This document shows, in pieces, positions 3,306 through 21,126 of a stretch of DNA of 23,568 bases. How positions within the stretch are numbered: position 1 is the stretch's first letter; each line of letters starts with the position of its first letter. The notes under the pieces were generated by a model that did no database searches, had not been told where the DNA came from, and saw only the letters and a list, made by a program, of their open reading frames with translations. The position numbers and the translations under genes were made by a program. The stretch comes from a virus. The stretch is taken from positions 1 to 23,568 of IMG/VR virus record IMGVR_UViG_3300006345_000099; one strand, 5' to 3'.

Positions 3306-3685
3306 TGGAACTAAAAGATTGGTTGAACTCTATCAACTTTAACAAGAACAATCTGATAGAAGAAGATCCAGAAACAATATCATCCTACCCTCCATACATT
3401 GTCAATAGGTGTTTGTCAGGACATCTAGACACTGTACTGTTTGCAAATGAAATGAACAAGTACAGTAACCTTGATAAGGATATGCAGTACTCTTTCTTCC
3501 TATATACTTTGAGGAAGAGAAAAAGATTTTCCCCTTGGTTGAAGAAGGAACAAGTCGATGACTTGGATCTAGTTAAAAAACACTATGGATATAGTAATGA
3601 GAAAGCGAAGGTCGCAGTAAGTCTTCTAACCAAAACCCAACTTGAAACTATTCGTAACCAACATGACATGGGAGGCAAAAAATGA
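3305..3685 (+). CDS. gp62: Clamp loader small subunit gp62
   Basis: A 126-residue protein placed directly before regA, as in T4. With four gp44 subunits, one gp62 forms the clamp loader and contacts the primer-template junction and the clamp. It has no ATPase motif, as expected. The segment NRCLSGHLDTVLFANEMNKYSNLDKDMQYSFFLYTL followed by RKRKRFSPWLKK parallels the MNLI...PRGKRYGKWAKL region of T4 gp62. It is shorter than T4 gp62 (187 aa), in line with my recollection of cyanophage versions. It ends in an ATGA overlap with regA, and its last codons carry the regA ribosome-binding site. Confidence 0.88.
   Translation: MELKDWLNSINFNKNNLIEEDPETISSYPPYIVNRCLSGHLDTVLFANEMNKYSNLDKDMQYSFFLYTLRKRKRFSPWLKKEQVDDLDLVKKHYGYSNEKAKVAVSLLTKTQLETIRNQHDMGGKK
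3670..3675 (+). promoter_or_regulatory. Strong Shine-Dalgarno site of regA
   Basis: GGGAGG lies 6 bases upstream of the ATG at 3682, inside the last codons of gp62. It is one of the best ribosome-binding sites in the window. It supports a start at 3682 rather than the internal ATG at 3724 that aligns with T4 RegA's first methionine. T4 RegA represses its own and neighbouring messages near their start sites, so this segment is a candidate autoregulatory target; that is inferred from T4. Confidence 0.7.
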
Positions 3686-4104
3686 CTGCGATCACTGAGG
3701 AAGTTGCATGGACTACCGACAGTATGATAGAGGTAGCACTACGCGAACCAGATGACTTTCTTAAAGTAAGAGAAACACTGACAAGAATTGGAGTAGCATC
3801 CAGAAAAGAAAAAAAATTATATCAATCATGTCACATACTGCATAAGCAGGGCAAGTACTACATCGTGCATTTCAAAGAGTTGTTTGCTCTGGACGGAAAA
3901 AAAGCAAACCTAAGTCTTAATGATGTGCAACGTAGGAATCGTATAGTACAGTTGCTAGGTGACTGGGGTTTGGTATCAATCAATAGTAAAGAGAGTATTG
4001 CTGACGTAGCACCTCTAAGTCAAATCAAAGTTCTTGCTTATAGAGAGAAAGGTGATTGGACTTTGGAAAGTAAATACAACATAGGAAAAAAGAAGGAGCA
4101 ATAA
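3682..4104 (+). CDS. regA: RegA translational repressor
   Basis: A 140-residue homologue of T4 RegA, the RNA-binding protein that represses translation of early phage mRNAs, including clamp and clamp-loader genes and itself. Matches include MIEVALREPDDFLKVRETLTRIG, LYQSCHILHKQGKYYIVHFKE and LLGDWGL, all close to T4 (MIEITLKKPEDFLKVKETLTRMG, LYQSCHILQKKGLYYIVHFKE, LLEDWGL). T4's Met1 aligns with Met15 here, so the protein has a 14-residue N-terminal extension if the 3682 start is used. That start has a GGGAGG ribosome-binding site and an ATGA overlap with gp62, whereas the internal ATG at 3724 has none. The protein ends in a lysine-rich tail. A terminator hairpin overlaps the stop. Confidence 0.96.
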   Translation: MTAITEEVAWTTDSMIEVALREPDDFLKVRETLTRIGVASRKEKKLYQSCHILHKQGKYYIVHFKELFALDGKKANLSLNDVQRRNRIVQLLGDWGLVSINSKESIADVAPLSQIKVLAYREKGDWTLESKYNIGKKKEQ

Positions 4105-4192: not shown

Positions 4193-4618
4193 ATGGAAAT
4201 TCAAAGGTACACTGCTGCAGACTTACCAACACTGTTTGATAAGATAACAAAGAACAGCATAGGAATGGATAGTTATTTCGATTCATTCTGGAACACAACC
4301 CAGACTAACTACCCACCTTATAACCTAATCCAACTAAGTAATGAAGAATCACGACTTGAAATTGCACTTGCTGGCTTCAAGCAAGATGACGTCAAAGTCT
4401 ATACGGAGTATGGAAAGATATATGTCGAAGCAAGCAAAGAAAAATCAGAAGAAGATGGAACGTATGTCCATCAAGGATTGGCACAACGTGCCTTCCAACG
4501 AGCATGGACGCTCTCCGATGATACGGAGGTTAGATCCGTCGAGTTTAATGATGGACTCCTCAGTATCGTATTAGGAAAAGTAGTTCCTGAGCACCACAAG
4601 AGAGTCGATTACATCTAA
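4193..4618 (+). CDS. hsp20: Small heat-shock protein (Hsp20 / alpha-crystallin)
   Basis: A 141-residue protein with an alpha-crystallin domain at about residues 45-130. YPPYNLIQ leads into the first strands, LEIALAGFKQDDVKVY forms the core, GLAQRAFQRAWTL is the conserved AFxRxxxL strand, and GLLSIVLGKVVPEHHK closes the domain. It is an ATP-independent chaperone that holds unfolding proteins, probably host or phage structural proteins, during infection. Hsp20 is a characteristic T4-like cyanophage gene. The frame is open back to 4121, but the start at 4193 is chosen because of its AGGAGA ribosome-binding site and because upstream residues have no family match. It has its own leader after the regA terminator, so it is likely a separate transcription unit or processing unit. 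Confidence 0.95.
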   Translation: MEIQRYTAADLPTLFDKITKNSIGMDSYFDSFWNTTQTNYPPYNLIQLSNEESRLEIALAGFKQDDVKVYTEYGKIYVEASKEKSEEDGTYVHQGLAQRAFQRAWTLSDDTEVRSVEFNDGLLSIVLGKVVPEHHKRVDYI

Positions 4619-4637
4619 CCAGTTTAAAAACTGTCAC

Positions 4638-4669
4638 AATACCTCTGGCATATACATGTCAGGGGTATT
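4638..4669 (+). terminator. Long hairpin between hsp20 and the nuclease-like gene
   Basis: Bases 4638-4650 pair with 4657-4669 over all 13 positions, two of them G-U, with a 6-base loop TATACA. No U-run follows (the next bases are ATAATG), so it is either an imperfect terminator for hsp20 or an operator/RNA-stability element. A weak hairpin, CAGTT/AACTG, sits just before it at 4620-4633. Confidence 0.5.
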
Positions 4670-4673
4670 ATAA

Positions 4674-4696
4674 TGTGTATATACACAAAACAAATC
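4674..4696 (+). promoter_or_regulatory. Palindrome plus TATACACAAAACAAATC leader of the nuclease-like gene
   Basis: TGTGTATATACACA (4674-4687) is a perfect 14-base palindrome. It runs into TATACACAAAACAAATC (4680-4696), which ends directly at the ATG at 4697. The same 17-base string occurs before cobS (20018-20034), and a variant occurs before cobT (17766-17784). None of the three starts has a Shine-Dalgarno site. Probably a shared promoter or translation leader; its activity is inferred. Confidence 0.55.
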
Positions 4697-5293
4697 ATGT
4701 TTCCTAAAGAACTAAACTCAGCAGTAGATTTTTTAAATACACTTACAATTCAAATTGCTGAAGGACATGAAGATGGTAGAGTCAATAGTATTGCTGACGA
4801 AGATACCATTATAGATCTTCTTGCAGAAAGATATGGTAATGCTATTGAGAAACCAGTTGCAAGAGAGTGGTGGGATGTAAAGATATATGGTTATCCAGTG
4901 AATATCAAATCATCAGCATTTAAAAATGCAGCAGATAATTTTTCATCAAAAGCAGCAATACTATATGCACTTACAGATCTACCAGAAAATAAAGTAAAGG
5001 TACAGAGATGGCAAACTTTTGAAAATTTATTAAAGACACATAATAAAGATAACAATCGTGACTACTACATCATTGCACTAAACAAAACAACAGGAGAGTG
5101 TCACCTACAATCTCTCAAGTCACTTGAGAAACTAACATCAAATGGTAACAACTTACCATTCCAGATTAAATGGAAAGATAATGTGACACCAGTAACACGT
5201 ACCCATAGACAAGCGTACGAATTTATAGTAGAATGTTACAAGGACTCAGTACGTAAAAAGATATCATCACATGATGGATTTGAAAACTTATGA
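4697..5293 (+). CDS. Putative restriction endonuclease-like protein paired with a methyltransferase
   Basis: A 198-residue protein. The N-terminal GRVNSIADEDTIIDLLAERYG (28-47) and WWDVKIYGYPVNIKSS (58-73) resemble type II restriction enzyme cores. Asp60 followed nine residues later by Asn69-x-Lys71 looks like a PD-(D/E)xK active site with the acidic residue replaced by Asn, and it is followed by AADNFSSKAAILYALT. The gene overlaps the next one, a DNA methyltransferase, by 23 bases, the expected arrangement for a restriction-modification pair. A longer frame starts at ATG 4673, but that start lies in the palindrome. ATG 4697 follows the shared SD-less leader and is preferred. It could instead be a nuclease that attacks host DNA. 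Fold assignment is by motif only, with moderate confidence. Confidence 0.6.
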   Translation: MFPKELNSAVDFLNTLTIQIAEGHEDGRVNSIADEDTIIDLLAERYGNAIEKPVAREWWDVKIYGYPVNIKSSAFKNAADNFSSKAAILYALTDLPENKVKVQRWQTFENLLKTHNKDNNRDYYIIALNKTTGECHLQSLKSLEKLTSNGNNLPFQIKWKDNVTPVTRTHRQAYEFIVECYKDSVRKKISSHDGFENL

Positions 5294-15999: not shown

Positions 16000-17741
16000 T
16001 TGTTTTTGAAAAAGTTCGTTGGAAGAACTTCCTTTCTACAGGGAATGTCTTCTCAGAGATTGATCTACAGCGTTCTAGAACTAATTTAATTGTAGGACAC
16101 AATGGATCAGGTAAGTCAACCATCTTAGATGCGTTGACATTTTCTCTCTTTGGAAAACCATTTAGAAAAATTAGTAAGAGTATGCTAGTTAATAGTGTCA
16201 ATGAGAAAGACACTATGGTAGAGATAGAATTTAGTATTGGAAAAAATAGTTATCAGGTAATTCGTGGTATCAAACCTAATAGGTTTATGGTGTATTGTAA
16301 TGGTCAACCGTGGGATGAGGATGCCAAGGCAGTAGATCAACAAAAGAATTTAGAACAGAATGTATTGAAGATGAACTTCAAGTCATTCACACAGATTGTG
16401 GTGCTAGGATCTAGTACCTTTGTACCTTTTATGCGTTTGCCTGGTCAACAACGTAGGGAAATTATTGAAGATATACTAGACATTCAAGTTTTCTCTGTAA
16501 TGAATAGCAGATTAAAAGATAAGATAAGAGAAAATAATGAAGAGATCAAAGACTTAGATTATCAATTACATCTCTTAGATGAGAAAATAGAACTTCAGAA
16601 GAAGTATATGTTAGAATTGAAGAAGAAAACAGAAGCAGAGATTGATAAAAAGAAAGAAAAGATTAAGGAATATTCTGAAGAAGAAGAAAATTCTTTAGAA
16701 AAAATTCAGAATCTCACAGATGAAGTTACAAATCTATCAACAGAAATGGAAGAGTATTCCAAAAGTTCTAGTAAATTAAAAAAATTAAATACTTTTCTTA
16801 TTAGGTTGAATACAAAATTATCTTCTTGTAAGAAAGAGCATCAGTTTTTTGAAGACAATCATGTGTGTCCTACATGTACTCAAGATTTATCTGATGAGTT
16901 TAGATCAGATAAGATAGAAGAAGGAAAGACAAAACTTGATGAAATGAATGTAGGTTATGAAGAACTACAAACTGCAATTAAAGAAGAGGAAGAGAGAAGT
17001 GAAAAATTTATAGAACTGTCACAGGATGTCAATACAAAGAACACTACTATAACAAATATAAATTATCAGTTGATGAGCATCAGAAATAATATTGATGAAA
17101 TCAATAAAGAAATTAAAGAGTTAGAAGGATCTACACCAGATAAAAAAGCAGAGTTTGTTAAGTTAGAAGAGATGTTAGTAGATAAAAAAGAAACTAAGAA
17201 AAACTATACTACCAGTAAGAAAGATCGTGATGTGTTACAGGTAGCTACAACTCTCTTGAAAGATAGTGGTATCAAGACTAGAATCATCAAAACATATCTT
17301 CCTACAATGAATAAACTGATTAACCAGTTTTTACAGAGTATGGATTTTTATGTCAATTTCACACTTAACGAACACTTTGAGGAAACTATTAAGTCTAGAT
17401 ATAGAGACGTATTCTCATATGAAAGTTTTAGTGAAGGAGAGAAAGCTCGTATAGATATCAGTCTATTACTAACTTGGCGATCTATTGCTAAACTCAAGAA
17501 TAGTGTTGACACTAACCTACTTATTTTAGATGAAATCTTTGACGGATCGCTTGACCAGTCTGGTACTTCTGATCTTGGTTGGATCTTACGTAACTTTGAC
17601 GATAATACAAACGTATTTGTTATCTCACACAAAACTATTTTAGATGATAAGTTTGATCGTACCATTACTGTTAACAAGGATAAAAATTATTCTACCTTAG
17701 AGGAGACAGTTCACGAAGTGACACATGCACTGGTTGGCTAA
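15996..17741 (+). CDS. gp46: Recombination endonuclease subunit gp46 (Rad50/SbcC-like)
   Basis: A 581-residue SMC-type ATPase partner of gp47. Walker A GHNGSGKST is at 34-42, followed by a long coiled coil rich in Lys/Glu (about 170-285). The zinc hook CPTC is at 291-294, the coiled coil returns (about 300-415), the ABC signature FSEGEKARIDIS is around 478-489, Walker B LLILDEIFDGS has Asp512/Glu513, and the switch VISHK follows. T4 gp46 is 560 aa. ATP-driven closure gates gp47's nuclease. It overlaps the DUF3110 gene by ATGA and ends the long gp43-gp46 run before an intergenic leader. Confidence 0.97.
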   Translation: MIVFEKVRWKNFLSTGNVFSEIDLQRSRTNLIVGHNGSGKSTILDALTFSLFGKPFRKISKSMLVNSVNEKDTMVEIEFSIGKNSYQVIRGIKPNRFMVYCNGQPWDEDAKAVDQQKNLEQNVLKMNFKSFTQIVVLGSSTFVPFMRLPGQQRREIIEDILDIQVFSVMNSRLKDKIRENNEEIKDLDYQLHLLDEKIELQKKYMLELKKKTEAEIDKKKEKIKEYSEEEENSLEKIQNLTDEVTNLSTEMEEYSKSSSKLKKLNTFLIRLNTKLSSCKKEHQFFEDNHVCPTCTQDLSDEFRSDKIEEGKTKLDEMNVGYEELQTAIKEEEERSEKFIELSQDVNTKNTTITNINYQLMSIRNNIDEINKEIKELEGSTPDKKAEFVKLEEMLVDKKETKKNYTTSKKDRDVLQVATTLLKDSGIKTRIIKTYLPTMNKLINQFLQSMDFYVNFTLNEHFEETIKSRYRDVFSYESFSEGEKARIDISLLLTWRSIAKLKNSVDTNLLILDEIFDGSLDQSGTSDLGWILRNFDDNTNVFVISHKTILDDKFDRTITVNKDKNYSTLEETVHEVTHALVG

Positions 17742-17754
17742 GTGAATTTTTAGT

Positions 17755-17784
17755 GTATACTAAAGTATACCAATCAACAAATCA
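17755..17784 (+). promoter_or_regulatory. Inverted repeat and leader of the cobT-like gene
   Basis: GTATAC (17755-17760) and GTATAC (17765-17770) form a 6-bp stem with a TAAA loop. TATACCAATCAACAAATCA (17766-17784) then runs directly into the ATG at 17785. There is no Shine-Dalgarno sequence. The TATAC...ACAAATC pattern matches the leaders of cobS (20018) and of the nuclease-like gene (4680). TGTATACT at 17754-17761 could serve as a -10 element. Likely a promoter/leader unit; role inferred. Confidence 0.5.
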
Positions 17785-19956
17785 ATGTCTCAGAAAGAAA
17801 TTAAAGGAAATCTAGCAAGACTACTAGCAACAGAAAATTTAGTAGTGGAGCATCGTAACGTACCAACTGCACAGTTTGATGTAGAACGTAGAGTATTGAC
17901 TCTACCTAACTGGGACAAAGCAAGCAACATTGTATATGACATGCTTGTAGGTCATGAGGTAGGACATGCATTGTTCACACCTAATGAAGATTGGAGAAAG
18001 AAAGTTAAAGTACCACAATCATATGTAAATGTCGTTGAAGATGTTCGTATTGAGAAGTTGATGAAGCGTAAGTATCCTGGTATCCGCAAAAGTTTTTCTG
18101 GTGGATATGCCGAACTAAACGCATTAGATTTCTTTGAGATTGCTGATGAAAACCTAAGTGAGTTTGCATTGATTGATCGTATCAACTTACACTACAAGGT
18201 TGGTGCATCTGCTCTTATTCCTTTTACAGAAGAAGAGAAAGTATTTGTAACACGTGCAGAAAATACAGAAACATTTGATGAAGTTCTAACTCTTGCTGAA
18301 GACATTCGTGCTTTTGTTAAAGCATCACAAGAAGAGCAAAAGCAAGAATCAAATACTGATGGATCTTTGGATATTCAATTTGATGGTCAAGATAATAATG
18401 ATTATGATTCAGATACAGAATCACAGCAACCATCTAATAGTGATGCAACTGATGAAGAGATAGATCAAGAGTCTGACATAGATGACCCTAATTTTGATGA
18501 AGGGGAATCAGGTGGTTATGAAGGTGGTGATCATTGGGAAGGTGAGACTCAAGAAAAATTTGATAAAAAAACAGAATCATTATCTGATACAAGTAATACC
18601 AGAAATATTAATTATGTTGAGATTCCTAAAACAGTTGACTTAAATAAAGTTCTTGTTGATTGGAAAGTTATTCATGATTGGATTGATCAGAATGCAGAAG
18701 AGTCAGAAAAAAAACCAGATACACCTTGGGATACTAGATTGACTTATGCTGATGTTGATGCTAAGTATCAAGAGTTTCGTAATGAGAACAAGAAAGAAGT
18801 AAGTTATCTTGTAAAAGAGTTTGAGTGTCGTAAGTCTGCTGACGCATATGCACGTACTTCAACTGCTAAGACAGGTGTTCTTGATACTTCTAAACTTCAC
18901 ACATACAAGCACAGTGAAGACCTATTCAAAAGAATTAGCATCGTACCTGATGGTAAAAATCATGGCATGATTTTCATTCTTGATTGGTCTGGTTCTATGC
19001 AGTATGAAATTCTTCCTACTGTAAAACAGTTACTCAATCTAACTGCATTCTGTAAGAAAGTACAAATTCCTTTTGAGGTATATGCATTTACTAATGAGTG
19101 GCAGAGAGCAATCCGTGTTATGGAAGGTCAATCACAACCAGATTACTACTACTATCGTGAAAGAAATTACGTAGGTATAGAAAAAGGATATCTATATCTT
19201 GCAGAAGGTGAGTTTCATCTAATGAACTTTCTTTCTTCTCGTTCTAATCCAAAAGATTATGAGAGACAGTGCAGAAACATCTTCCGTGAAGCGTATGCTT
19301 TTTCTTGCAGAAATACTACATACCATTATTCAATAGGACTAGAATTATCTGGTACTCCATTGAACGAAGCAGTGATTATGCTTAACTACATCATTCCTAG
19401 TTTCAAAAGACAGAGTGATGTTCAAAGAGTAAATGTTTGTATCCTAACAGATGGTGAATCAAACTCTATTTCTTATGGTTCAAGTCATACTTATGATGAT
19501 GGAGAAGAGTCTAGAGTTACTCCTAAAACTATAGACTATGGTAACTGTGCATTACGTGATCGTAAGACAGGTAGAGTATATTCTAAAATGGATTATCATT
19601 CTGCTACCATAACATTTATTCAGCAAGTTCGTGACAGACATCCAGAAGTAAATGTTCTTGGATTCCGTCTACTACCTCCTTCTAGATTATCTGAATTCGT
19701 TGCTCGTTTTGGTTCATATGATAGATATGAAGAAGTACAAAAGCAATGGAGAAAAGATAAGTCTGCTGTAGTTCCAGACTCAAAAGGATATACTGAACTC
19801 TATGCTATCTCATCAAAAGATCTTGAGAATGAGCATGAGTTTGAAGTTAAGGAAGGTGCTAAAAAAGGTGATATTACTAGAGCATTCAAAAAAATGCTTA
19901 AGAGTAAGTCCACTAATAAAAAGTTACTTAACTCATTCATATCACACGTGGCATAA
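17785..19956 (+). CDS. cobT: CobT-like VWA-domain protein with HExxH motif
   Basis: A 723-residue protein. The N-terminal domain has GHEVGHALFTP (His57, Glu58, His61), an HExxH zinc-peptidase-like signature, then a region with VEDVRIEKLMKRKYPG. A long Asp/Glu/Ser/Gln-rich acidic linker (about 190-255) leads to a C-terminal von Willebrand A domain with MIDAS FILDWSGSM (Asp400, Ser402, Ser404) and ILTDGESNS. This matches the cyanophage proteins called CobT or peptidase. The next gene encodes the CobS AAA+ ATPase. CobS-CobT form the ATP-dependent part of cobaltochelatase (vitamin B12 synthesis), but MoxR/VWA pairs are also general chaperones. Its own leader and a following hairpin make it a separate unit. 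Confidence 0.85.
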   Translation: MSQKEIKGNLARLLATENLVVEHRNVPTAQFDVERRVLTLPNWDKASNIVYDMLVGHEVGHALFTPNEDWRKKVKVPQSYVNVVEDVRIEKLMKRKYPGIRKSFSGGYAELNALDFFEIADENLSEFALIDRINLHYKVGASALIPFTEEEKVFVTRAENTETFDEVLTLAEDIRAFVKASQEEQKQESNTDGSLDIQFDGQDNNDYDSDTESQQPSNSDATDEEIDQESDIDDPNFDEGESGGYEGGDHWEGETQEKFDKKTESLSDTSNTRNINYVEIPKTVDLNKVLVDWKVIHDWIDQNAEESEKKPDTPWDTRLTYADVDAKYQEFRNENKKEVSYLVKEFECRKSADAYARTSTAKTGVLDTSKLHTYKHSEDLFKRISIVPDGKNHGMIFILDWSGSMQYEILPTVKQLLNLTAFCKKVQIPFEVYAFTNEWQRAIRVMEGQSQPDYYYYRERNYVGIEKGYLYLAEGEFHLMNFLSSRSNPKDYERQCRNIFREAYAFSCRNTTYHYSIGLELSGTPLNEAVIMLNYIIPSFKRQSDVQRVNVCILTDGESNSISYGSSHTYDDGEESRVTPKTIDYGNCALRDRKTGRVYSKMDYHSATITFIQQVRDRHPEVNVLGFRLLPPSRLSEFVARFGSYDRYEEVQKQWRKDKSAVVPDSKGYTELYAISSKDLENEHEFEVKEGAKKGDITRAFKKMLKSKSTNKKLLNSFISHVA

Positions 19957-19961
19957 CCAGT

Positions 19962-19987
19962 TGGGAAAGTGGCACATCACTTTCCCA
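19962..19987 (+). terminator. Hairpin between cobT-like and cobS
   Basis: TGGGAAAGTG (19962-19971) pairs perfectly over 10 bp with CACTTTCCCA (19978-19987) around a GCACAT loop. It starts 6 bases after the cobT-like stop. The following TTTACTTATACC is only mildly T-rich, so termination may be partial. Confidence 0.65.
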
Positions 19988-20005
19988 TTTACTTATACCA
20001 TGAAC

Positions 20006-20034
20006 TATACTTTATATTATACACAAAACAAATC
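20006..20034 (+). promoter_or_regulatory. Promoter-like leader of cobS
   Basis: TATACTTTATATTATAC (20006-20022) flows into TATACACAAAACAAATC (20018-20034), whose 17 bases are identical to 4680-4696, ending 2 bases before the cobS ATG at 20037. No Shine-Dalgarno site is seen. The AT-rich block offers several -10-like hexamers (TATACT, TATATT, TATTAT) just after the hairpin that ends the cobT-like gene. Role inferred from repetition and position. Confidence 0.55.
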
Positions 20035-20036
20035 CC

Positions 20037-21126
20037 ATGCCTTTCCAATCAAAATTTACTAACGAAGAACTAATCACATTTCTAACAACAGACGAAGAAG
20101 TTGTTACTAGTGATAACGTCAAAGATGCTGCTGAACATTTTGGAGTGAAAGTGCAAAGCGTTACTAAAAGAATTAACAAACTTCCACAGTTCCAAAAAGT
20201 TACACGTGGTAAGTGGAATCTATCTGTAGCAGAAAAACTTGAGAAGACATTCAATGCACCTGCTGCACCTATTGTAGAACAGAATCTTGTACCAGACAAA
20301 GATCCAAACTATGTACCTTTCGGTAACTTTGCTGACGTAAAGAAGATCATCAGTTCTAAGATGTTCTATCCTACATTCATTACTGGTCTATCTGGTAATG
20401 GTAAAACATTCTCTGTAGAGCAAGCATGTGCTCAACTCAAGAGAGAACTTATTCGTGTAAACATTACCATTGAAACAGATGAAGATGATCTCATCGGTGG
20501 TTTCCGTCTTGTTAACGGTGAAACCGTATGGCATGACGGACCAGTTATTCAAGCTCTCAACAGAGGAGCTATCTTGCTCCTTGACGAAGTTGACCTTGCC
20601 AGTAACAAAATCCTCTGTCTCCAATCCATCCTTGAAGGTAAAGGAGTTTTCCTTAAGAAGGTCGGAAGATTCGTCAAACCTGCAAACGGATTCAACATCT
20701 TTGCCACAGCAAATACTAAAGGTAAAGGTTCAGATGACGGACGCTTTATTGGAACTAACGTGCTCAATGAAGCATTCCTTGAAAGATTCCCAGTAACATT
20801 TGAGCAAGCATATCCAAGTGTAAACAACGAAATCAAACTTCTAGGATTACACGCAGATAGAGTAGGTGTCAAAGATGCTGAGTTTGTTAAGAAGTTAGTA
20901 GATTGGGCAGACATAATCCGCAAAACATTCTATGATGGTGGTATCGAAGAGTTAGTCAGTACTCGTAGATTAGTTCACATACTTCGTGCATACTCTATCT
21001 TCAAGAACAAAGCAAAAGCAATCCAAGTTTGCATCAATCGTTTTGATGACGAAACAAAGCAATCATTTATGGAATTATATGATAAAGTGGATGCAGACTT
21101 TGAAATGCCTACTGAGGAGGTTAAGG

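Follow-up and report, generated by a model that had tools for sequence, protein, structure and literature searches.

Three genes of a cyanophage genome fragment lie behind predicted copies of a cyanomyovirus promoter with an upstream dyad box

Why should three separate genes of one viral DNA fragment begin behind nearly the same short leader? The fragment analyzed here (the window; 23,568 nt) is myocyanophage-like and carries regA, gp43, uvsX, a DnaB-like helicase gene, gp46, gp47 and gp45. As the earlier note had described, an identical 17-mer, TATACACAAAACAAATC, was found at 4680-4696, ending 0 nt before the ATG at 4697 of an endonuclease-family gene, and at 20018-20034, 2 nt before the cobS ATG at 20037; a variant, TATACCAATCAACAAATCA at 17766-17784, directly adjoins the ATG at 17785 of a CobT-like gene. 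The genes referred to below are as follows.

3682-4104, within the window: regA (phage RegA)
4697..5293, plus strand: endonuclease-family gene (phrog_3978), 198 aa
17785..19956, plus strand: CobT-like peptidase gene (phrog_459), 723 aa
20037..21143, plus strand: cobS (phrog_249, AAA_5), 368 aa

A further in-frame ATG of the endonuclease gene, at 4673, shares bases with the -10 hexamer and is an unlikely start; a longest-ORF caller would place the start of this gene 24 nt too early. We consider it highly probable that each of the three leaders forms the 5'-terminal 16-18 nt of an mRNA made from its own copy of a cyanomyovirus-specific promoter, served by an activator at a dyad box.

To define what is conserved around these leaders, upstream regions of orthologues of the three genes were collected by protein similarity alone, without use of the motif. 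They shared TATAAT or TATACT, then about six bases, ATAC or ATCA as a start-like sequence, a leader rich in A and C, and the ATG. The upstream element came to light as k-mers enriched behind the stop codons of seven cyanophage genomes: ACTGTCACA, ACTGGCACA and TGTCCACT occurred at 21-27 times expectation. When aligned, the boxes form an 18-bp dyad, GMCASTT-N4-AASTGKC, usually followed immediately by ACA. Other approaches were set aside: an early regular expression for the post-stop element was too strict a pattern and gave no clear enrichment, an unseeded EM motif search returned mostly terminator stems and the late promoter, and a histogram of TATAHT positions was weak as sole evidence, with a visible peak mainly in one genome (G001).

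The distance from the box to the -10 hexamer is 37-40 bp, counted from the ASTG of the box. By box-match counts among the homology-selected loci, 44 of 59 cobT and 56 of 73 cobS upstream regions had a box at a distance of 37-39 bp from the hexamer; the same interval was found in 6 of 20 endonuclease upstream regions. Many endonuclease orthologues have no box, so the membership of an individual gene is not fixed. At cobT and cobS, box and -10 may be separated by a terminator, by a weak hairpin or by coding sequence, and still the spacing is rigid. Consistently, the spacing histogram of the seven whole cyanophage genomes gave 37 matches at 38 bp and 15 at 39 bp, with 1-7 in most other bins. All three sites of the window carry GMCASTT-N4-AASTGKC 37-40 bp upstream of TATAMT, the arrangement that defines the class.

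4618..4638, plus strand: endonuclease dyad box ACCAGTTTAAAAACTGTCACA (PWM 24.2 bits), sharing one base, the last, with the stop codon of hsp20 before it
4669..4674, plus strand: endonuclease -10 hexamer TATAAT, 39 bp from the box ACTG
4681..4696, plus strand: endonuclease predicted leader, 16 nt, AUACACAAAACAAAUC; start at 4681 predicted from the class profile
17705..17725, plus strand: cobT/peptidase dyad box GACAGTTCACGAAGTGACACA (PWM 24.4 bits), within the gp46 coding end (ETVHEVTH)
17756..17761, plus strand: cobT -10 hexamer TATACT, 39 bp from the box AGTG
17767..17784, plus strand: cobT predicted leader, 18 nt, AUACCAAUCAACAAAUCA; start at 17767, within 2 nt, predicted from the class profile
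19956..19976, plus strand: cobS dyad box ACCAGTTGGGAAAGTGGCACA (PWM 23.1 bits), overlapping both the stop codon before it and the hairpin's left arm
19962..19987, plus strand: terminator-like hairpin TGGGAAAGTG...CACTTTCCCA (z = -3.8), with the cobT stop before it and the cobS -10 after it
20006..20011, plus strand: cobS -10 hexamer TATACT, 38 bp from the box AGTG
20019..20036, plus strand: cobS predicted leader, 18 nt, AUACACAAAACAAAUCCC, from the class profile

With a two-part matrix trained on seven other cyanophage genomes, the window being excluded, the composite of box and -10 scored 30-33 bits at each of the three sites, and the maximum over 200 shuffled windows was 17.6. Rfam gave no match in the window.

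Next, the distribution of the composite was examined. Matches of at least 15 bits numbered 6-24 per genome in seven cyanomyoviruses, against 0-2 in the Markov control and 0.4-2 at other spacings; the seven-genome counts are partly circular, as the same genomes provided the training sites, while the window, IMG/VR and spacing controls are independent. T4 gave 0 composite matches, and the pelagiphage HTVC008M three low-scoring sites. An exact pattern search of IMG/VR returned at least 120 stretches at the right spacing and 13 when the hexamer was moved by 6 bp, and among the IMG/VR matches listed, the best protein match was to a cyanomyovirus for 116 of 120 loci. Bacterial and archaeal genomes totaling 257 Gb gave two matching contigs, both cyanophage-like, under a pattern slightly stricter than that used for IMG/VR, so that these counts are not directly comparable. 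Both contigs (L419 and L420) come from MAG TMED113, labelled Flavobacteriales, and look like cyanophage sequence binned with a bacterium. Boxes in P-SSM2, P-SSM4, S-PM2 and S-WAM2 stand mainly ahead of small-gene clusters, and the genes of these clusters are plausibly early. The earlier suggestion of a promoter class with a short leader is thus supported, with recurrence far beyond the window; co-regulation of the genes and the transcription starts are predictions. That reading had overlooked the defining dyad box, which precedes the -10 by 37-40 bp, and had given too much weight to the exact leader sequence. It had named a lack of further occurrences as the result that would speak against it, and such a lack was seen for the exact 17-mer beyond close relatives, not for the promoter class.

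Does the box act as DNA, or as part of an RNA hairpin? In 76 distinct homology-selected boxes the two half-sites vary mostly independently (for example, 37 G:G and 5 C:C vs 2 C:G at one pair), and only one of the six dyad pairs exceeded independence in Watson-Crick matches (42 vs 30.8 expected). Compensatory changes being mostly absent, an RNA hairpin function of the box was rejected. Independent half-sites, together with a cobT box that lies inside the gp46 reading frame at the usual spacing, favor a DNA operator; the box would most likely be an activator site near -53. The same observations bear on a different account, in which the three genes have ordinary host-like sigma-70 promoters behind terminators, the box being no more than the segment of a terminator or 3'-UTR hairpin that comes after the stop codon, with the -10 close behind through genome compactness. 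The box does often directly follow a stop codon, and it is frequently separated from the -10 by a hairpin; a hairpin before each gene, as had been proposed for the window, was found at the endonuclease gene (RNA folding z = -5.2) and at cobS (z = -3.8) and not at cobT (z = -0.5). A minority of class members also have a -35-like hexamer (5/6 matches; 11 of 140 vs 1 of 140 shuffled), and the endonuclease site has CTGGCA at 18 bp in the -35 place. Most class members have no TTGACA-type -35 at 16-18 bp, and the cobS and cobT sites are absent from the two-hexamer promoter list. Against a box derived from terminators stand the spacing, which holds at 37-40 bp whatever intervenes, the cobT box within coding sequence and half-sites without the covariation expected of an RNA stem; the zero count in T4 argues against host-like promoters that merely follow terminators. 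We regard this account as unlikely.

For a profile of start and leader, 140 distinct IMG/VR instances were used, with box and -10 as the sole selection criteria. Position +1 is A in 79% and G in 21%, +2 is T in 87% and +3 is A in 74%, and the ATG lies mostly 21-27 nt past the hexamer. At all three window sites a TATAAT-type -10 is followed about 7 nt later by a predicted purine start, as in host-like sigma-70 promoters. Class leaders are 75% A+C, compared with 55% at other intergenic starts, and folding at the start codon is weaker in the class (-1.57 vs -2.32 kcal/mol, p = 1.6e-4). The predicted 5' UTRs of the window genes are 16-18 nt long, and those of cobS and cobT fold at 0.0 kcal/mol (-18 to +18). 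The absence of a Shine-Dalgarno site from all three leaders, stated in the earlier note, was confirmed. As a signature of the class it did not carry over: an SD-like word is present in 18% of class leaders vs 25-35% of other cyanophage genes, a mild depletion, so SD-lessness is a tendency rather than a signature.

These properties might suggest that the leader itself is what selection has kept, as a non-SD translation signal or as the target of a translational regulator such as RegA. Class-wide, leaders are indeed A/C-rich, weakly folded and mostly SD-less, regA lies within the window, and in cyanobacterial genes with SD-independent translation weak 5' structure compensates (PMC6847405, PMC3121790). 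However, conservation begins upstream of the predicted transcript, at the box and the -10, leader sequence varies between near relatives, the strongest leader columns are those of the transcription start, and the SD depletion is slight. Selection on the leader as the primary cause is accordingly rated very improbable.

We asked whether the exact 17-mer has a role of its own. No further copies with up to 3 mismatches were found in the window; dinucleotide shuffles averaged 0.32 matches, and 5 of 100 shuffles gave two or more. In IMG/VR the exact 17-mer occurred upstream of these genes in close relatives only, the other matches lying inside unrelated coding-looking sequence, and it was therefore rejected as a functional unit. 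Near relatives already differ from it, at cobS in L147 and L149 (the L147 leader is TATACACAACAAATC) and at the endonuclease gene in L113. Judged by conservation, the exact identity is incidental, and the surrounding architecture is the conserved part. Coincidence in an AT-rich genome or recent duplication of the 17-mer, to which this narrow distribution and the shuffle matches could be credited, is scarcely credible as the whole explanation, because both copies occupy the same slot of a 30-33-bit promoter beyond the reach of 200 shuffles (maximum 17.6), a 16-nt leader identity has a chance of about 1e-6 per pair from class composition, local copying of leaders, which is possible, leaves the promoter unexplained, and conservation across the class already contradicts it. 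Homogenization of leaders within genomes was not seen (0.443 vs 0.431), though identical leaders before different genes recur: a 16-nt leader, ATACACACAGACACCT, precedes several different genes in L312, L314, L328, L364 and L389, like the 17-mer of the window.

The promoter class with its dyad box was compared with known phage promoters. Its host sigma-70 -10 with a phage-specific upstream box in place of a -35 resembles T4 middle promoters, in which a MotA box replaces the -35 (PMC2988021). The two differ in that the MotA box has a TGCTT core centered at -30, 12 +/- 1 bp from the -10, and is bound by a monomer, whereas the present box is an 18-bp dyad near -53; no MotA-like element is conserved between -10 and -35 in the class, the conserved box lying at about -62 to -42. 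Cyanomyoviruses have been reported to lack motA and asiA, and the same work describes a putative middle promoter in P-SSM4 and Syn9 and not in P-SSM2 or S-PM2 (PMC2984593); the box is present in all four genomes. Cyanophage and T4 late promoters (NATAAATA/TATAAATA) similarly have a -10-like element without a -35, but the dyad-box class has TATAAT or TATACT plus an upstream box, and no late-promoter TATAAATA was found upstream of the window genes; the hexamers of the three sites are TATAAT or TATACT. Promoters activated by P2 Ogr or P4 delta have a TGT-N12-ACA dyad near -55 and a -10 with a poor -35. A dyad near -55 is thus shared; by inspection, the TGT-N12-ACA site does not match GMCASTT-N4-AASTGKC-ACA. 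Work by Doron et al. in the ISME J of 2016 is said to have described a 'novel regulatory element' that controls the early genes of Syn9 and is abundant and conserved in T4-like cyanophages. That element reportedly serves early-gene control, and the dyad box mainly precedes small-gene clusters, in addition to the peptidase gene and cobS beside replication genes. The dyad box may be the same element, and its novelty is uncertain.

How might such a promoter work? What the sequences themselves show is the dyad box at its set spacing, the -10, a consensus around the start, the make-up of the leader and the way the promoter is distributed among phages. Host RNA polymerase with its main sigma factor would recognize TATAAT or TATACT, as the -10 and the purine start fit. 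Most sites being without a -35, a dimeric activator, most likely, would bind the dyad box, whose center lies some 53 bp before the predicted start, and recruit polymerase instead. A dyad near -53 at fixed spacing is the geometry of an upstream activator that touches polymerase, and it is on this ground that we infer one. Transcription would begin at the A (or G) of ATA, and the ribosome would probably load on the unstructured 5' end of a short, A/C-rich, weakly folded and usually SD-less leader. As the box also precedes clusters of small, plausibly early genes, the putative factor may be a host gene product or enter the cell with the virion. Presence and absence across nine genomes fit phrog_385, DUF1825 and several unknown families as box-binding candidates, none convincing. 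The phrog_385 proteins (~79 aa; S-PM2 143633-143872, L240; Syn9 175642-175872, L204) are annotated as transcriptional regulator, and the S-PM2 member matches all seven box-bearing cyanophages, not T4 or HTVC008M, which makes the family a weak candidate for the factor. More speculatively, and with some doubt on our part, the arrangement could be an undescribed cyanomyovirus system in which a dedicated dimeric protein (phage-encoded, virion-borne or a captured host factor) acts at the -53 dyad of promoters whose own leader is SD-less and A/C-rich. Such a system would take the place of MotA/AsiA and join host-takeover genes, the peptidase gene and cobS in one regulon.

According to published reports, T4-like cyanophages have no MotA, no AsiA and no middle promoters of the T4 kind, and how their early genes and middle genes are timed has yet to be settled. 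A box at a fixed position, found across cyanophages and nearly absent from cellular genomes, predicts transcription start sites; it lists the genes of the regulon in any cyanophage contig and can serve as bait DNA for isolation of the activator.

Two other upstream arrangements were noticed. TTGACAAGTTTGTCAA is a palindrome that overlaps a consensus -35 before TATAAT, at 123.7 kb in Syn9 (L203) and 125.2 kb in P-SSM4 (L288), upstream of a gp55-type late sigma gene in Syn9 and of the gene in the corresponding place in P-SSM4; it is possibly a repressor operator or a site through which the late sigma gene regulates itself. A host-like promoter, TTGACA...TATAAT/TATACT, is shared by the regions preceding small genes at Syn9 163373, P-SSM4 168625 and S-WAM2 175807, unlike the dyad-box class, and the small gene at Syn9 163373 encodes a high-light-inducible protein.
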